A stretch of 64,000 nucleotides of DNA from Acinetobacter sp. GTDB lineage: Bacteria > Pseudomonadota > Gammaproteobacteria > Pseudomonadales > Moraxellaceae. The stretch spans positions 1 through 64,000 of the forward strand of contig JAITLL010000054.1 of assembly GCA_031277915.1 (NCBI GenBank), in the 5' to 3' direction. Each line of letters starts with the position of its first letter. The stretch's first letter is position 1. Both the position numbers and the translations under genes were made by a program. This document shows positions 23,293 to 59,241 of the stretch, piece after piece. The notes below the pieces were generated by a model. That model was not told the DNA's origin, searched no databases, and worked only from the letters and a program-made list of their open reading frames with translations.

Positions 23293-23368
<76 letters not shown>

Positions 23369-23413: not shown

Positions 23414-23489
<76 letters not shown>

Positions 23490-52471: not shown

Positions 52472-53905
52472 TTAATCAAAAGTTTCTTGGCCTAGTTTTT
52501 TCATGCGTGGCTTATAAAACACATGATAGCTAACGCCTAAAACAACTAACCACAATGGACTAACATATACCGCTTTTAATGTATCTGGCTCTAGTGCCAA
52601 AATCACTAAAGTGAACAAGAAAAATGCAATGACAACATATGCCATCAACACTCCGCCCGGCATTTTAAAGGTCGATTTAGCATGTAACTCTGGACTCAAC
52701 TTACGGTAACGTAAATAGCATGCCATGATCAGAAGCCATACACTAATAAAGAGAATCACACAGAGTGAACTTGCCAAAGTAAATGCTTCCATGGTGTTTG
52801 GAACAAAGTACTGAAGCACTGCCCCACCCATAATGAAAATACATGAGAAGATTAAACCATTTGAAGGTACGGCACGTTTTGATAAACGCCCTAATGCGCT
52901 CGGTGCCTGACCATCTTTCGATAAACCAAAAAGCATACGACTGGTTGAAAACACACCGCTGTTCATTGAAGACATCACTGAAGATAGCACCACCAAGTTC
53001 ATGATGATGGCTGAAACAGGAATACCCGCATTTAAGAACAACTCAACAAACGGGCTTTTATCTGCACGAATGTGATCCCATGGAGTCACTGACATTACAA
53101 CAAAGAGCGCCAGCACATAGAATAGAATAATACGTACAGGAATCGCGTTAATTGCCTTCGGTAGATTTTTCTCTGGATCTTTGGTCTCAGCGGCTGTTGT
53201 ACCAATCAATTCAACGCCAATAAAGGCAAACACGGCAATCTGGAAACCTGCCAAAAATCCGCTTACGCCTTTTGGAAATATGCCGCCATGCGACCACACA
53301 TTACTTACACTCACAACCTCACCATGCGGAGCTTGAAAATGTGTAAGGAGCATGTAGCCACCGACTCCAATCAGGCCAATAATGGCCAAAATCTTAATGA
53401 GTGCGAACCAAAATTCAACTTCACCAAACAACTTCACCGTAAGAAGGTTAAGCCCTAAAATGAATAGTACACAGCCTGCACTAATCATGGCCTGTTGCAT
53501 GGGTGAAAAACTGGTGCCTTCAGGCAGCCAGAAACTTAGATAGTTAATGACCGCAGACAAATCAGCAATACCGACCAGTACCCAGCCTAACCAATAAGTC
53601 CAGCCTATATAATAGCCAGCCCATGGTCCAATCAAATCATATGCCATATCGACAAATGATTTGTAATGTAAGTTGGCAAGCAGTAGTTCACCCAATGCAC
53701 GCATCAGAAAAAAGAACATGCCACCAATTATCATGTAGATAACGAGGATTGAAGGACCTGCAAGGGAGATGGTTTTGCCCGAGCCCATAAATAGGCCGGT
53801 TCCAATTGCACCGCCAATTGCAATCATTTGTAGATGGCGATTATTTAATTTCCGTTGTAAATGATCAGGGGAGCTTGCCTCATCGGGATGATGAACCATT
53901 GTCAT
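52472..53905 (-). CDS. Amino-acid permease, CycA-like (copy A)
   Basis: An APC-family symporter of 477 residues with 12 helices: MIAIGGAIGTGLFMGSGKTI near 27-46, ALGELLLANLHYKSFVDMA, and FAFIGVELIGTTAAETKDPEKN. It resembles the D-serine/D-alanine/glycine transporter CycA. It is about 90% identical by eye to the next permease, with differences clustered in termini and loops. A shared structured leader lies 36 bp upstream of the start. Confidence 0.9.
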   Translation of the reverse strand: MTMVHHPDEASSPDHLQRKLNNRHLQMIAIGGAIGTGLFMGSGKTISLAGPSILVIYMIIGGMFFFLMRALGELLLANLHYKSFVDMAYDLIGPWAGYYIGWTYWLGWVLVGIADLSAVINYLSFWLPEGTSFSPMQQAMISAGCVLFILGLNLLTVKLFGEVEFWFALIKILAIIGLIGVGGYMLLTHFQAPHGEVVSVSNVWSHGGIFPKGVSGFLAGFQIAVFAFIGVELIGTTAAETKDPEKNLPKAINAIPVRIILFYVLALFVVMSVTPWDHIRADKSPFVELFLNAGIPVSAIIMNLVVLSSVMSSMNSGVFSTSRMLFGLSKDGQAPSALGRLSKRAVPSNGLIFSCIFIMGGAVLQYFVPNTMEAFTLASSLCVILFISVWLLIMACYLRYRKLSPELHAKSTFKMPGGVLMAYVVIAFFLFTLVILALEPDTLKAVYVSPLWLVVLGVSYHVFYKPRMKKLGQETFD

Positions 53906-53940
53906 ATTAGAAGTCCTTTTTATATTTTGCTTAATTTAAA

Positions 53941-53987
53941 TCAGCAACCTATAGGGAGAAAACGAACCGTATATCGTGGGTTGCTGA
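53941..53987 (-). ncRNA. Leader hairpin of permease copy A (candidate cis-regulatory RNA)
   Basis: On the sense (minus) strand UCAGCAACC pairs with GGUUGCUGA, nine perfect base pairs closing a 29-nt loop, 35 nt before the start codon. The loop contains AUACGGUUCG, UUUUC and CCC, all shared with the copy B leader. AAAGGAC, the ribosome site, follows outside the hairpin. Confidence 0.6.
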
Positions 53988-54067
53988 GTCTATACCTCAG
54001 GACAAGATGTTCAAGTATATTTTTTCCTTAATTGATCTATCTGTTGTCCCAGTTTTTTTAAGTCACA

Positions 54068-54142
54068 TTATTTATGTAATGCCTTCACGGCAATTTTAAT
54101 TATCCAATCTCGATTCACCAGATTAGCCGAAGTTTAGCATGT
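54068..54142 (-). pseudogene. Decayed 3' end of a ridA gene
   Basis: Read on the minus strand, the last 19 codons before the stop at 54068 are ANLVNRDWIIKIAVKALHK, aligned without gaps to the true RidA end ADLVNPDWLIEIAVTAAPK at 55878. A stop codon interrupts the frame just upstream. It marks a lost second ridA copy. Confidence 0.85.
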
Positions 54143-54238
54143 GGTAATACGAGATGTCGCTTTTCTACCCCCCTCTAAACTGTGCTATTGATTCAAAAAC
54201 AAACAACATTATTCCGATAAAAAAACTGATGAAAATAA

Positions 54239-54268
54239 AAAAAGCCAATCATGATTGATTGGCTTTTT
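54239..54268 (-). terminator. Terminator of permease copy B
   Basis: AAAAAGCCAATCA-TGAT-TGATTGGCTTTTT lies 8 bp past the stop of copy B and duplicates the hairpin downstream of copy A. Confidence 0.87.
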
Positions 54269-54276
54269 AATAAAAC

Positions 54277-55716
54277 TTAATGATCGTTAACGAGTTCACG
54301 TCCTAGCTTTTTCATACGTGGTTTGTACAACATATGATAGGTAATACCTAAAATGATCAACCATACTGGGCTGACATACAAAGCTTTTAAAGTATCAGGT
54401 TCTAGCGCCAAGATGACCAAAGTAAAAAGCATGAATGCCAAAACTACATAGCTCATCCAAATGCCACCCGGCATTTTGAAAGTAGATTTTTCATGTAATT
54501 CAGGACGTAATTTACGATAGCGTAAATAGCACACCATAATGAGACTCCACACACTAATGAATAGAATCACACAAAGTGAACTTGCTAAAGTAAATGCTTC
54601 CATGGTGTTTGGAACAAAGTACTGAAGTACTGCCCCACCCATAATGAAAATACACGAAAAAATCAAACCATTTGAAGGTACTGCACGTTTTGATAAACGC
54701 CCAAATGCACCCGGTGCCTGACCGTCTTTTGATAAACCAAAAAGCATACGGCTAGTTGAAAACACACCGCTGTTCATTGAAGACATGACTGAAGACAGCA
54801 CCACCAAGTTCATGATGATGGCTGAAACAGGAATACCTGCATTTAAGAATAACTCAACAAACGGGCTTTTATCTGCACGAATGTGATCCCAAGGGGTTAC
54901 TGACATCACAATAAAAAGTGCTAGTACATAGAACAAAATAATACGTACTGGAATCGCGTTAATTGCTTTCGGTAAATTCTTCTCTGGGTCTTTAGTTTCA
55001 GCAGCCGTTGTACCGACAAGTTCTACCCCGACAAAAGCAAATACGGCAATCTGGAATCCAGCCAAGAAGCCTTCCGTACCTTTCGGGAATAAACCGCCAT
55101 GCGACCAAACATTACTAATGCTTGCAACAGCACCTTGAGGAGCTTGGAAATGGCTAAAAATCATGTAGCCACCCACTCCGATCAGGCCAATAATTGCCAA
55201 GATCTTAATCAGTGCAAACCAAAATTCAATTTCACCAAATAGGCGTACAGTCAGTAGGTTAAGGCCCATGACAAACAACACACAACCTGCGCTAATCATG
55301 GCTTGTTGCGTTGGCGAAAAGCTCGTGCCATCGGGCAGCCAGAAGCTCAAATAGTTAATGACCGCTGAAAGGTCCGCAATACCCACCAGCACCCAACCTA
55401 ACCAATAAGTCCAACCCAAATAATAACCAGCCCAAGGACCAATCAGGTCATGAGCCATATCAACAAAAGATTTGTAATGCAGATTTGCAAGGAGTAACTC
55501 ACCCATTGCACGCATTAAGAAAAAGAACATGCCTCCAATAATCATATAGATCAAAAGGATTGAAGGACCTGCGAGGGAGATAGTTTTACCCGAACCCATA
55601 AATAGGCCGGTTCCAATTGCACCGCCAATAGCAATCAGTTGTAAATGACGGTTAGACAGTTTTCGTTGCAGATGATCAGGAGAATTTTCCGTATCTGAAT
55701 GACGAGCCGTTGTCAT
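54277..55716 (-). CDS. Amino-acid permease, CycA-like (copy B)
   Basis: The 479-residue paralogue of copy A, with the same 12-helix plan and motifs (GTGLFMGSGKTI, FAFVGVELVGTTAAETKD). It is the copy that directly follows the dadA-racemase-ridA operon, so it is probably the ancestral position. Import of D-alanine or glycine would feed DadA; this is inference from context and similarity to CycA. The start is preceded by AAAAAGGAATTTTAAT and by the conserved leader hairpin. Confidence 0.9.
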   Translation of the reverse strand: MTTARHSDTENSPDHLQRKLSNRHLQLIAIGGAIGTGLFMGSGKTISLAGPSILLIYMIIGGMFFFLMRAMGELLLANLHYKSFVDMAHDLIGPWAGYYLGWTYWLGWVLVGIADLSAVINYLSFWLPDGTSFSPTQQAMISAGCVLFVMGLNLLTVRLFGEIEFWFALIKILAIIGLIGVGGYMIFSHFQAPQGAVASISNVWSHGGLFPKGTEGFLAGFQIAVFAFVGVELVGTTAAETKDPEKNLPKAINAIPVRIILFYVLALFIVMSVTPWDHIRADKSPFVELFLNAGIPVSAIIMNLVVLSSVMSSMNSGVFSTSRMLFGLSKDGQAPGAFGRLSKRAVPSNGLIFSCIFIMGGAVLQYFVPNTMEAFTLASSLCVILFISVWSLIMVCYLRYRKLRPELHEKSTFKMPGGIWMSYVVLAFMLFTLVILALEPDTLKALYVSPVWLIILGITYHMLYKPRMKKLGRELVNDH

Positions 55717-55749
55717 ATTAAAATTCCTTTTTGAATTCCTTTGTTAAGA

Positions 55750-55795
55750 TCAGCAACCTAGGGCGAAAATCGAACCGTATGCCATAGGTCACTGA
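55750..55795 (-). ncRNA. Leader hairpin of permease copy B (candidate cis-regulatory RNA)
   Basis: On the sense (minus) strand UCAGUGACCUA pairs with UAGGUUGCUGA: 11 pairs including U-G and G-U wobbles at exactly the positions that are C-G and A-U in the copy A leader. The same changes would be C-A and A-C mismatches in the opposite strand's RNA. The 24-nt loop shares AUACGGUUCG, UUUUC and CCC with copy A. It ends 33 nt before the start codon. Confidence 0.6.
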
Positions 55796-55877
55796 ATCTG
55801 TTCACCAAAAATGACTGGATAAACCGTATCTATCTTCCTTCTGTTAGATACATCATCATTTTTGGAGTAAAAACGAA

Positions 55878-56237
55878 TTACTTTGGTGCTGCCGTCACGG
55901 CAATTTCAATTAACCAATCTGGATTGACCAAATCGGCCTGAATTGTGGCACGCGATGGAGCAACACACCCTTTTAACCAGTCAACCCAAATTGCATTTAC
56001 GGTTGAAAAGTCAGAAAGATTTTTCAAATAGAGCTGTGCAGAGAGCAAGCGAGATTTGTCGGTATTGGCTAATGCCAAAAGTTCATCAATCGTTGCAAGA
56101 ATTTCACGAGTTTGGCCTGCCACGTCTTGCTCGGTATTTTTAGGTACCTGACCTGACAGATAAACCACTTTGTTAAAAACAGTCACGGCGCTCATGACTT
56201 CGTTAGTGTTAATCTTTTGTATATCTGAATTAGACAT
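55878..56237 (-). CDS. ridA: RidA family reactive-imine deaminase
   Basis: RidA proteins hydrolyse reactive 2-imino acids released by PLP enzymes or amino-acid oxidases, here likely the imine made by DadA. The 119-residue protein begins at ATG 56237 (MSNSDIQKINTNEVMS, AAGGAAA upstream). KVVYLSGQVP near 24-33 and the Arg of PSRATIQADLVNP near 95 (ligand carboxylate contact) are present. It follows the racemase gene by 10 bp. Confidence 0.9.
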   Translation of the reverse strand: MSNSDIQKINTNEVMSAVTVFNKVVYLSGQVPKNTEQDVAGQTREILATIDELLALANTDKSRLLSAQLYLKNLSDFSTVNAIWVDWLKGCVAPSRATIQADLVNPDWLIEIAVTAAPK

Positions 56238-56247
56238 TCGGATTTCC

Positions 56248-57351
56248 TTATACCTGATTAATAAATTGAACACGGGCGGTGACAGCACACATCAGTTCAT
56301 AGCCCACCGTACCGGATGAAACTGCAACATCATCAATAGGTAAAACGACACCTGTACTTGATTGGCCCCAAAGTACGACTTCACTGCCGACTTTGACACT
56401 CTCAATGCCGGTTAAATCGACTGCCAACATATCCATGCTGACGCGGCCAATTGTACGAGTGCGGACAGAGTCCACTAAAACCGGAGTATCTGTTGGTGAA
56501 ATACGCTGATAACCATCGGCATAGCCACAAGCGACAATCCCAATCGTCATGGGTTGCTCTGCGACAAAGTTTGAGCCATAACCTACGCTTTCATTCGGTT
56601 CTAAATGCTGAACTGAAATAATTTCGCTACGTAAGCTCATGGTCGGTTGTAAGCCCCAGTCCGTAATACTATGCGTCGGGTAGTCTGGCGAGCTGCCATA
56701 GAGCATAATGCCACTACGTGCATAATCTGATTTGAGCTGGTCTTGATAACGCAGAATTGCTGCGCTATTACTTACCGACCTTTCACCCGGTAAATCTTTA
56801 ATAATTTCTTCAAATGCAGTGATTTGATAATCAATGCCTTGCTGGCCGAAACGATCGCCATCTGCATCTGAAAAATGCATCATGTGCGTAATCTTGGACA
56901 CATTTGCCAAGCTATTTAAACGTTCCCATGCCTGAACATAGTGTTGTGGTTTAAAACCAAGACGGTTCATACCACTGTTCATTTTTAGACAAACATCAAA
57001 TTGGGCTGGATAAGGATGCTTTTCTACCCACTCAATTTGCGCTTCACTATGAATGGTGAAACTGAGTTGATACTGCACACAATCAAATAAGTCTTGAGGA
57101 GAAAAAACTCCTTCGAGCAATAAAATTGGACCTGTCCAACCTAAAGCACGAATGCGTTTTGCTTCATCAAGATCAAGTAAGGCAAAGCCATCTGCGGCTT
57201 TAAATGCTTCATAAACACGTTCAATTCCGTGTCCATAAGCATTGGCTTTTACAACGGCAAAGACCTTACTGTTTGGCATAGCCTTGCGTACCACCGCCAA
57301 GTTATTTTGTAAGGCTTGACGGTGGATCACTGCGGTAATAGGACGAGGCAT
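56248..57351 (-). CDS. dadX: Alanine racemase, catabolic (DadX-type)
   Basis: A PLP enzyme interconverting L- and D-alanine. AVVKANAYGHG near 31-41 holds the PLP Lys, and the second catalytic base is the Tyr of NESVGYGSNF near 253. The 367-residue length and RVSMDMLAVDLTG are normal. Its place between dadA and ridA argues for the catabolic enzyme that supplies D-alanine to DadA. Confidence 0.93.
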   Translation of the reverse strand: MPRPITAVIHRQALQNNLAVVRKAMPNSKVFAVVKANAYGHGIERVYEAFKAADGFALLDLDEAKRIRALGWTGPILLLEGVFSPQDLFDCVQYQLSFTIHSEAQIEWVEKHPYPAQFDVCLKMNSGMNRLGFKPQHYVQAWERLNSLANVSKITHMMHFSDADGDRFGQQGIDYQITAFEEIIKDLPGERSVSNSAAILRYQDQLKSDYARSGIMLYGSSPDYPTHSITDWGLQPTMSLRSEIISVQHLEPNESVGYGSNFVAEQPMTIGIVACGYADGYQRISPTDTPVLVDSVRTRTIGRVSMDMLAVDLTGIESVKVGSEVVLWGQSSTGVVLPIDDVAVSSGTVGYELMCAVTARVQFINQV

Positions 57352-57371: not shown

Positions 57372-58637
57372 TTATGCAGCATGCGCGTGTGAATAACGCT
57401 GAATTGAAAGACCATCTGTACTGATTTCAGTCTTATGATTCAATACGATGTCACTGATTAATTTTCCTGAACCACATGCCATCGTCCAGCCTAAAGTACC
57501 GTGACCTGTATTCAAGAACAGATTTTTAAAGCGAGTCGCACCAATAATTGGGGTACTGTCTGGTGTCATTGGACGTAAACCTGTCCAGAAAGACGCCTGT
57601 GCCATATCGCCACCCGGGAATAAGTCCTGAGTCACCATTTGCAAGGTTGCACGGCGGTCTTCGTTCAGACCTAAGTTAAAACCACTTAACTCTGCCATAC
57701 CGCCTACGCGAATACGTTGATCAAAACGCGTAATCGCAATTTTGTAGGTTTCATCAAGCACTGTAGATTGCGGAGCAAAAGCAGGGTCAACAATTGGAAT
57801 CGTCAACGAATAACCTTTCACAGGATATACAGGCAACTGTAGATCAAGTGGTTTCAAGAAATCACGTGAATAGCTACCAAACGCTAAAACATAACGATCT
57901 GCGGTTAAGACCTTACCATTGACCTGAACGCCCTTAATTTCATCGCCTTCAACAATCAATTTTTCTACGTTCTGGTTGAACTGGAAGTTAACACCTAACT
58001 CTTTGGCAATTTGAGCTAAAGCATTGGTAAATAAATAACAGTCACCTGTCTCGTCATTTGGTAAATGTAAACCACCAACGAGTTTATCTTGCGCATTTGC
58101 CAAAGCTGGTTCTACACGACCAAGTTCGTTGCCATTTAATAATTCGTAGCTTACGCCGCACTCTTGTAGCACGCTAATGTCGCGTTGAACCGCTTCCATT
58201 TGCGCTTCTTTACGGAATAACTGCAAAGTACCTTTAGCGCGGTTTTCGTAATTAATGCCTGTATCTTTTCTAAGTTCACGTAAGCAATCACGGCTGTATT
58301 CAGCCACACGCATCATACGTTCTTTGTTCACAGCATAACTTTGTGGATTACAGTTTTTTAGCATTTGCGCCATCCACTGTAACTGCCACATGCTGCCATC
58401 TAAATTAATCGCAAGCGGTGCGTGATGTTGGAACATCCACTTCACAGCTTTAAAAGGGATTCCTGGTGCTGCCCAAGGGGTCGAATACCCTGGCGAAATT
58501 TGACCTGCATTACCAAAGCTTGTTTCTTCAGCAGGGCCTGCCTGACGGTCAAGAACAGTGACCTCAGCTCCTTGTTGAGCTAGATAATAGGCACTTGCCA
58601 CTCCGATAACGCCGCTACCTAATACAATTACGCGCAT
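57372..58637 (-). CDS. dadA: D-amino-acid dehydrogenase small subunit
   Basis: DadA is a membrane-associated FAD enzyme that oxidises D-alanine to pyruvate and ammonia. The FAD motif [22 protein letters not shown] is at 4-25; [22 protein letters not shown] and the C-terminal [19 protein letters not shown] are DadA signatures. ATG 58637 (MRVIVLGSG) gives 421 residues and has GAGGGA upstream. It is the first gene of dadA-dadX-ridA, divergent from an Lrp-type regulator. Confidence 0.95.
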
Positions 58638-58658
58638 TTCCATTCCCTCACGCACACC

Positions 58659-58773: not shown

Positions 58774-59241
58774 ATGCGCCCCCTAGATCGTATAGATCGC
58801 ATGATTCTGGACATTTTGCAGCGTGAAGGACGAATTGCGATTAGTGAATTGGCATCGAGAGTCAACCTATCAACCACCCCCTGTTCAGAGCGTGTAAAAC
58901 GCCTTGAACGCGATGGCATTATCATGGGTTATTACGCCCGTCTAAACCCAGCTTACGTAGACCGTAACCTGCTCGTCTTTTTAGAAATTAAATTATCTGC
59001 CAAATCTGGTGATGTATTTGATCAGGTGGCCAGAGACTTAGTTGAGATTCCTGAAGTACTCGAATGTCACCTTATTTCAGGTGAGTTTGACTATCTTGTA
59101 AAAGCTCGCTTAAAAGAAATGAGCGCATACCGCCGCTTATTAGGAGATCTTTTAAAGAAACTTCCCGCTTCGGCATCGTCACACAGTTATGTGGTCATGG
59201 AAGAAGTAAAAGAAACTCTGTATTTAGATGTAAGCAAGTAA
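58774..59241 (+). CDS. Lrp/AsnC family regulator (DadR-like)
   Basis: A 155-residue protein with N-terminal HTH (LDRIDRMILDILQREGRIAISELASRVNLSTTPCSERVKRLE) and C-terminal RAM ligand-binding domain (about 65-150, VLECHLISGEFDYLVKAR). Divergence from dadA points to control of D-alanine catabolism by L- or D-alanine, as with DadR/Lrp homologues. The direct repeats in its promoter suggest autoregulation. Confidence 0.9.
   Translation: MRPLDRIDRMILDILQREGRIAISELASRVNLSTTPCSERVKRLERDGIIMGYYARLNPAYVDRNLLVFLEIKLSAKSGDVFDQVARDLVEIPEVLECHLISGEFDYLVKARLKEMSAYRRLLGDLLKKLPASASSHSYVVMEEVKETLYLDVSK

Follow-up and report, generated by a model that had tools for sequence, protein, structure and literature searches.

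A probable RNA structure in the leader of dad-operon permease genes of Acinetobacter, with CsrA as a candidate regulator

Two tandem permease genes lie at the end of a dad operon in the window, by which we mean the whole 64,000-nucleotide stretch of Acinetobacter DNA analysed here, and each of them is preceded by a hairpin. A sequence-only reading of this DNA had proposed that the hairpin is a selected RNA structure and had guessed that it binds either a ligand or a protein. The locus thus raises two questions, namely whether the leader is maintained as RNA and, if so, what acts on it.

The permease locus and its two leaders

The genome was placed in the Acinetobacter calcoaceticus-baumannii complex (ACB), its permease B being 97-99% identical to that of eight named genomes of the complex. 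Along the minus strand, dadA, the alanine racemase gene (alr) and a ridA-like gene are followed by the two permease genes, and an Lrp-like regulator gene (58774-59241) lies beside the operon.

57372..58655, minus strand: dadA, D-amino acid dehydrogenase
56248..57351, minus strand: alanine racemase gene of the dad operon
55878..56288, minus strand: ridA-like gene, directly upstream of the copy B leader; scores under the curated threshold of the Rid family model
54277..55716, minus strand: permease copy B, CycA-like; best NCBIfam model D-serine/D-alanine/glycine transporter, 709 bits (cut-off 732)
54240..54268, minus strand: terminator-like hairpin with a U-run after copy B (by eye; loose matches to sRNA terminators)
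54080..54134, minus strand: remnant of the ridA 3' end from the tandem duplication (alignment)
52472..53905, minus strand: permease copy A, CycA-like; same transporter model, 695 bits

The two permeases are 89% identical, and both score just below the cut-off of the transporter model. The alignment indicates that copy A came from a duplication that took the end of ridA along. The stretch between the permease copies (54080-54276) holds the ridA remnant and the terminator-like hairpin left by this tandem duplication. Since a terminator-like hairpin with a U-run separates the copies, copy A probably has its own promoter.

The leaders contain an upstream element (H1), the hairpin in question (H2) and several GGA motifs, including that of the Shine-Dalgarno (SD) sequence.

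55805..55865, minus strand: H1 structure of copy B, outer stem CCAAAAAUGA/UCAUUUUUGG in the MFE fold; partly broken in some relatives
55827..55850, minus strand: inner hairpin of H1 in copy B, UAUCUAACAGAAGGAAGAUAGAUA, with unpaired AAGGA; GGA at -122 (55836-55838)
55750..55795, minus strand: H2 of copy B, stem UCAGUGACC/GGUUGCUGA plus further inner pairs, loop AUACGGUUCGAUUUUC
55737..55739, minus strand: extra GGA of copy B between H2 and the SD (-23)
55725..55727, minus strand: SD GGA of copy B (-11), partly paired in the model
53999..54050, minus strand: H1 region of copy A, arms GGGACAA and UUGUCCU with AAGGA between them; GGA at -122 (54025-54027)
53941..53987, minus strand: H2 of copy A, stem UCAGCAACC/GGUUGCUGA, loop with AUACGGUUCG
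53914..53916, minus strand: SD GGA of copy A (-11)

The hairpins described 33-35 nt before both permease starts were found there, H2 ending 35 nt (copy A) and 33 nt (copy B) before the ATG at 53905 and 55716, respectively. The hairpin region, between ridA and the permeases, is non-coding, which answers the alternative of a protein-coding stretch. The two pairs said to become U-G and G-U in copy B do so, and the loops of both copies keep AUACGGUUCG, UUUUC and CC(C), as had been noted. The ACGGU of the loop places its GG at -63 (copy A) and -60 (copy B) from the start codon. Isolated 51-nt hairpins gave z scores of -3.36 and -3.44, equally good folds occurring in 2 of 200 dinucleotide shuffles, and within the whole leader the outer nine pairs of H2 had a probability of 0.85-0.94 in copy A and 0.57-1.0 in copy B. 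The inner stem is longer in the other copy-B leaders compared, and a mismatch stands at that place in the window's copy B. The ACB loop, AUACGGUUC, is almost invariant in both copies, and a DNA pattern for it matched nowhere in the own genome beyond the two permease leaders. The copy-B form of this loop, GGUUC(G/A)AUU (53955-53971, 55762-55779), resembles a tRNA T-loop, the motif of which we take to be UUCRANU; the R position is among the few that vary.

In H1, the AAGGA of copy B is predicted to be unpaired (probability 0.98-1.00) and has identical letters in 10 copy-B leaders; in copy A the corresponding probability is 0.51-0.99. AAGGA lies at exactly -122 in both tandem copies, although the neighbouring H1 sequence has diverged.

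Selection on the leader as RNA

The sequence-only reading had recognised no known riboswitch, and comparison with Rfam bore this out, giving no match to the leaders. A cis-regulatory identity in Rfam was rejected for the hairpins at gathering and at loose E-values alike. At loose E-values, the best matches in the intergenic region of copy A fell on the terminator-like hairpin after copy B, none of them reaching the gathering score. Over the whole window, gathering scores returned only two tRNAs. These are tandem genes with equal scores, at 23293-23365 and 23414-23486.

Permease orthologues were found in 116 of 176 Acinetobacter genomes (E 1e-240 or better), with two copies in 18, and in none of 94 other genomes of the order at E 1e-190. 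The orthologous proteins are about 77-88% identical to copy B across the genus. A DNA search with the leader gave matches in 15 of 100 genomes at E 0.01: ten carry both copies, with strong matches, and the other five showed short, apparently unrelated ones. Judged by eye, many clades have a long hairpin at a similar place, the stem sequence being unrelated between clades, and in many of them a closing stem, P1, lies about 33-40 nt before the start and holds one or two small hairpins. Some clades fold as a three-way junction, and several leaders have a second long hairpin before P1, towards ridA. The leaders of Alkanindiges and of a Moraxellaceae MAG (L175-L177) were folded once, outside the main analysis. 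It is because stems turn over within the genus that family libraries miss this RNA element.

Folding was scored over the 120 nt before the SD, in 120-nt windows, as z against shuffled sequence. The mean z of 56 orthologous leaders was -3.09, 40 of them being below -2; that of 18 paralogue leaders elsewhere in the genome was -0.45, with two below -2. The antisense of the 56 orthologous leaders gave a mean of -2.59 (37 below -2), and the sense strand was better in 38 cases. It had been argued that the substitutions between the two copies keep pairing in the sense RNA specifically. The substitutions are real, but antisense sequences fold nearly as low, so that the choice of strand does not follow from folding scores alone.

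Covariation in homologous leaders, the check that had been proposed, showed strong two-sided changes in one clade of 22 leaders and none within the ACB. When the 13 distinct ACB hairpins of both copies were aligned, none of the 15 pairs had changed on both sides and six varied one-sidedly; four of six inner pairs (columns 12, 14, 16 and 17) are unpaired in the six copy-A rows, and all 500 of 500 shuffles scored at least as high for covariation as the real alignment. The two copies of the window by themselves prove little about selection on RNA.

The clade with strong changes is that of A. gyllenbergii, A. haemolyticus and A. junii. In its 22 leaders, 95.8% of cells were paired, as against 26-38% in slid versions of the structure. 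Two-sided changes occurred at 9 of 14 pairs vs 6.1 after shuffling (1/500) and in 39 cells vs 11.6 (reached by 0/500), figures that are not to be read as probabilities, since the pair-count shuffles leave the relatedness of the leaders in place and the structure had been drawn from the very alignment being scored. The two-sided pairs comprise 8 of 11 in P1 and one more in the inner helix. Leaders of this clade (L129, L135 and others) also have a second conserved element upstream of P1, ACGUAUUU...AUACGUAUUUUCUUGCA, probably another hairpin. Support was weaker in the variabilis/schindleri clade (seven leaders, larger structure), with seven two-sided cells vs 3.0 in shuffles (3/500) and pair types no more numerous than in shuffles. 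Three of seven pairs were two-sided in six hairpins of the towneri/pragensis type, around a constant AGGA. The three-way-junction alignment was left out of the counts because MAFFT had not kept the inner helices in register in two groups.

Because of the covariation and the folding controls, we conclude that the permease leader is very probably selected as an RNA structure. The original claim thus holds on grounds other than its own: covariation in another clade, the folding of 56 leaders and retention of the hairpin behind a ridA remnant or behind another gene speak for it, whereas the wobble-pair argument is not significant alone.

GGA motifs and possible control by CsrA

For motif counts, L098-L120 were first set aside as belonging to more distant paralogues or to copies at other loci, and identical leaders were merged, which gave 117 unique leaders in 34 sequence clusters. 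An apical loop was defined by a stem of at least 3 bp and a loop of at most 14 nt, a rule by which both ACB copies count as having no GGA loop, and a cluster was positive if at least half of its members were. The background consisted of 204 leaders taken from the window and from fifteen 20-kb stretches of a single genome, and hence includes the window's own leaders.

A GGA in an apical loop was present in 40 of the 117 leaders, dinucleotide shuffles predicting 9.0 and the antisense strand giving 2. Weighted over the 34 clusters, the count was 17.6, compared with 2.5 in dinucleotide shuffles and 0.29 in antisense. Shuffling the letters within loops gave 7.7 clusters (21.8 leaders), values that are already high because the loops are purine-rich. 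Elsewhere, apical-loop GGA was found in 7 of 204 background leaders and in none of the 18 paralogue leaders. The signal is positional: between -80 and -45, limits that were set with the loop positions already known, 17 of 34 clusters had such a loop, vs 1 of 204 background leaders (Fisher 1e-15). Without folding, GGA ranked first of the 64 trinucleotides by enrichment in this stretch, followed by CAG and AGG; the fold-free count was 26.8 of 34 clusters vs 13.0, and 19.6 vs 6.5 at -66 to -48. An SD GGA was present in all 117 leaders, the window's copies included (background, 85/204, with an SD stretch two bases shorter; starts were picked by SD score in both sets). A loop GGA was present in 19 of the 34 cluster representatives; it lies 35-64 nt from the SD GGA in 17 of these and at 109 and 122 nt in the other two.

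Some leaders have an extra GGA just before the SD. Fifteen clusters have the loop GGA only, nine the extra GGA only, two both and eight neither (p 0.026). Clusters with one of the two motifs tend to lack the other, an observation made after looking at the data and taken as a lead. The extra GGA itself is not significantly commoner in the 34 clusters (11) than in the background (36/204; p 0.06).

These motifs recall those of CsrA, which recognises GGA in hairpin loops with the consensus RUACARGGAUGU, dimers bridging sites 10-63 nt apart, according to a review (PMC7652899). Of the two guesses as to what the hairpin binds, a protein is the better reading. By analogy with known targets, CsrA control is the best explanation of the permease leader, and we consider it somewhat more probable than its converse. 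A CsrA dimer would bind the loop GGA with high affinity and, once bound, would bridge to the SD GGA 35-64 nt downstream, thereby blocking ribosomes. Uptake of the D-alanine/glycine type would be held down until CsrA is sequestered. The role of P1 would be to expose the loop and to fix its distance; if it does just this, the letters of P1 are free to change while pairing holds. In clades lacking the loop GGA, the extra GGA just before the SD may substitute for it.

The closest parallel is the E. coli glgC leader, which CsrA represses at a hairpin site and an SD site; as in the permease leaders, a loop GGA lies upstream of the SD GGA at a distance suited to a CsrA dimer (same review). Unlike in glgC, the loop here is surrounded by a long variable closing stem or a three-way junction, the gene closes an operon and encodes an amino-acid permease, the CsrA site is a predicted one, and the window's clade lacks the loop GGA. 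The loops also resemble the ANGGAN sites of RsmE/RsmA (PMC7652899), reading GAGGAU, AGGAA, AGGAC, UAGGAUUU and GAGGAA. They differ in that the stems are often longer than those of SELEX ligands, GGGAU or GCGGAA occurs in some loops, and a GGA loop is absent from several clades. The permease leader probably adds to the CsrA-controlled leaders, with an architecture of its own.

The regulator itself is widespread, csrA (PF02599) being found in 173 of 175 genomes, and the remaining two genomes are 64% and 80% complete. The window genome's own CsrA has L4 and R44, and also R6 and R7, for which we likewise presume a role. A figure legend of the review (PMC7652899) marks L4 and R44 as RNA contacts. 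A csrA deletion in A. baumannii ATCC 19606 caused poor growth on alanine and casamino acids, and succinate was of no help (PMC8567240, available sections). This defect would fit harm from uncontrolled amino-acid uptake or use. A. baumannii thus needs CsrA for growth on alanine and other amino acids, and the same sections of that paper (PMC8567240) name no direct target that explains this need. The leader of an alanine/glycine-type permease of the dad operon, with CsrA-type sites, is a concrete candidate target. Among the papers listed in literature searches on Acinetobacter CsrA, cycA/dadA, riboswitches and start sites, none has a title or abstract opening that describes the permease leader.

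Several findings speak against CsrA. Eight of the 34 clusters have neither a loop GGA nor an extra GGA, and many stems exceed the four pairs that, according to the review, are usual for SELEX hairpins. The gyllenbergii/haemolyticus/junii clade, the best one for covariation, has a loop GGA by our rule in just 2 of 22 leaders. The CsrA explanation fits the window's own two copies least well. There, the loop that had been highlighted in H2 reads GGU at the place where many other clades have GGA, and lies outside the CsrA consensus, while the GGA of H1 is about 108 nt from the SD GGA in both copies, beyond the reported 63 nt. In the window's clade, which retains the hairpin in both tandem copies, the putative CsrA site is therefore lost, moved or different. 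If CsrA acts in the ACB, its sites would be the exposed AAGGA at -122 together with the GGAs close to the start codon.

We also considered a more elaborate reading, in which the leader is a fast-evolving, genus-wide one that conserves little beyond its structure and the position of one GGA and whose CsrA site has switched repeatedly between the loop and the region ahead of the SD, and in which the loop of the baumannii complex, now ACGGUUC in both copies, recruits another factor or none. We put this forward tentatively, as possible though doubtful. If it were true, misregulation of the permease would be among the reasons why csrA mutants of A. baumannii are sensitive to amino acids.

Other explanations of the leader

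Stem-loops between cistrons stabilise operon messages, and the hairpin might be such an element, one that guards the dadA-alr-ridA mRNA from 3' decay, or sets the level of the last gene, with no specific protein involved and with loop letters that do not matter. The permease hairpin indeed lies between cistrons, its stems change freely between clades (by eye), the second long hairpin before P1 in several leaders points towards ridA, and the leader follows a ridA-like gene in 56 of the 57 named orthologous loci. However, a bare stabiliser would not be expected to have its loop GGA clustered at one distance from the start, nor does the hairpin depend on ridA as the upstream cistron: copy A keeps it with a mere ridA remnant, and the exceptional locus, L161, in which dadA precedes the leader, carries AGGAA in a loop closed by a 9-bp stem. 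We regard this explanation as unlikely, yet worth keeping in mind. As to an intrinsic terminator or attenuator, inspection by eye of both copies found H2 followed by UUUAAAUUAAGC or UCUUAACAAAGG, with no long U-run.

Alternative pairing around the SD, possibly opened by an sRNA or by temperature, appears improbable as the general function of the leader. It is suggested by copy A (53906-54050), in which UUGUCCU is predicted to pair either with the upstream GG(G)ACAA or with the AGGAC of the SD, the latter enclosing H2; the two are mutually exclusive, and the MFE folds of the window's copy A prefer the SD pairing. UGUCC(U/C), its upstream partner and the SD AGGAC are all retained in 13 of 13 distinct copy-A leaders. 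Yet an upstream TCCT is found in only about 9 of the 34 clusters, so that the arrangement is not general, and the main text of an Hfq RIL-seq paper (PMC12802169) mentions neither 'permease' nor 'cycA'.

The other guess of the sequence-only reading, a ligand-sensing RNA, is not supported by the comparison between clades. A metabolite riboswitch for alanine, glycine or D-alanine would suit a leader that precedes an amino-acid permease and forms a three-way junction in some clades. We nevertheless consider it very improbable: neither a junction nor a core sequence was seen to be conserved across the genus, stems and loops are unrelated between clades when judged by eye and by clustering, and loops differ in length and sequence while the protein remains about 77-88% identical, and the window's leaders and 20 loci of other clades had no Rfam match at gathering scores.

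Least credible of all is a palindromic DNA operator, for instance of the Lrp-like regulator whose gene adjoins the operon, or a chance similarity, part of which the paralogous copies would have inherited through the tandem duplication, given that the sequence of the arms differs between species, loops are at least 16 nt long and complementarity is kept by two-sided changes, and that chance does not yield a mean z of -3.1 over 56 leaders.

Control by CsrA, the explanation that we prefer, may extend to a further gene. The sole background leader with an apical GGA at -80 to -45 is L256 (start 1628, minus strand). The gene that follows it looks, by eye, like a GntP-type permease, which makes it a possible second target of the same control.
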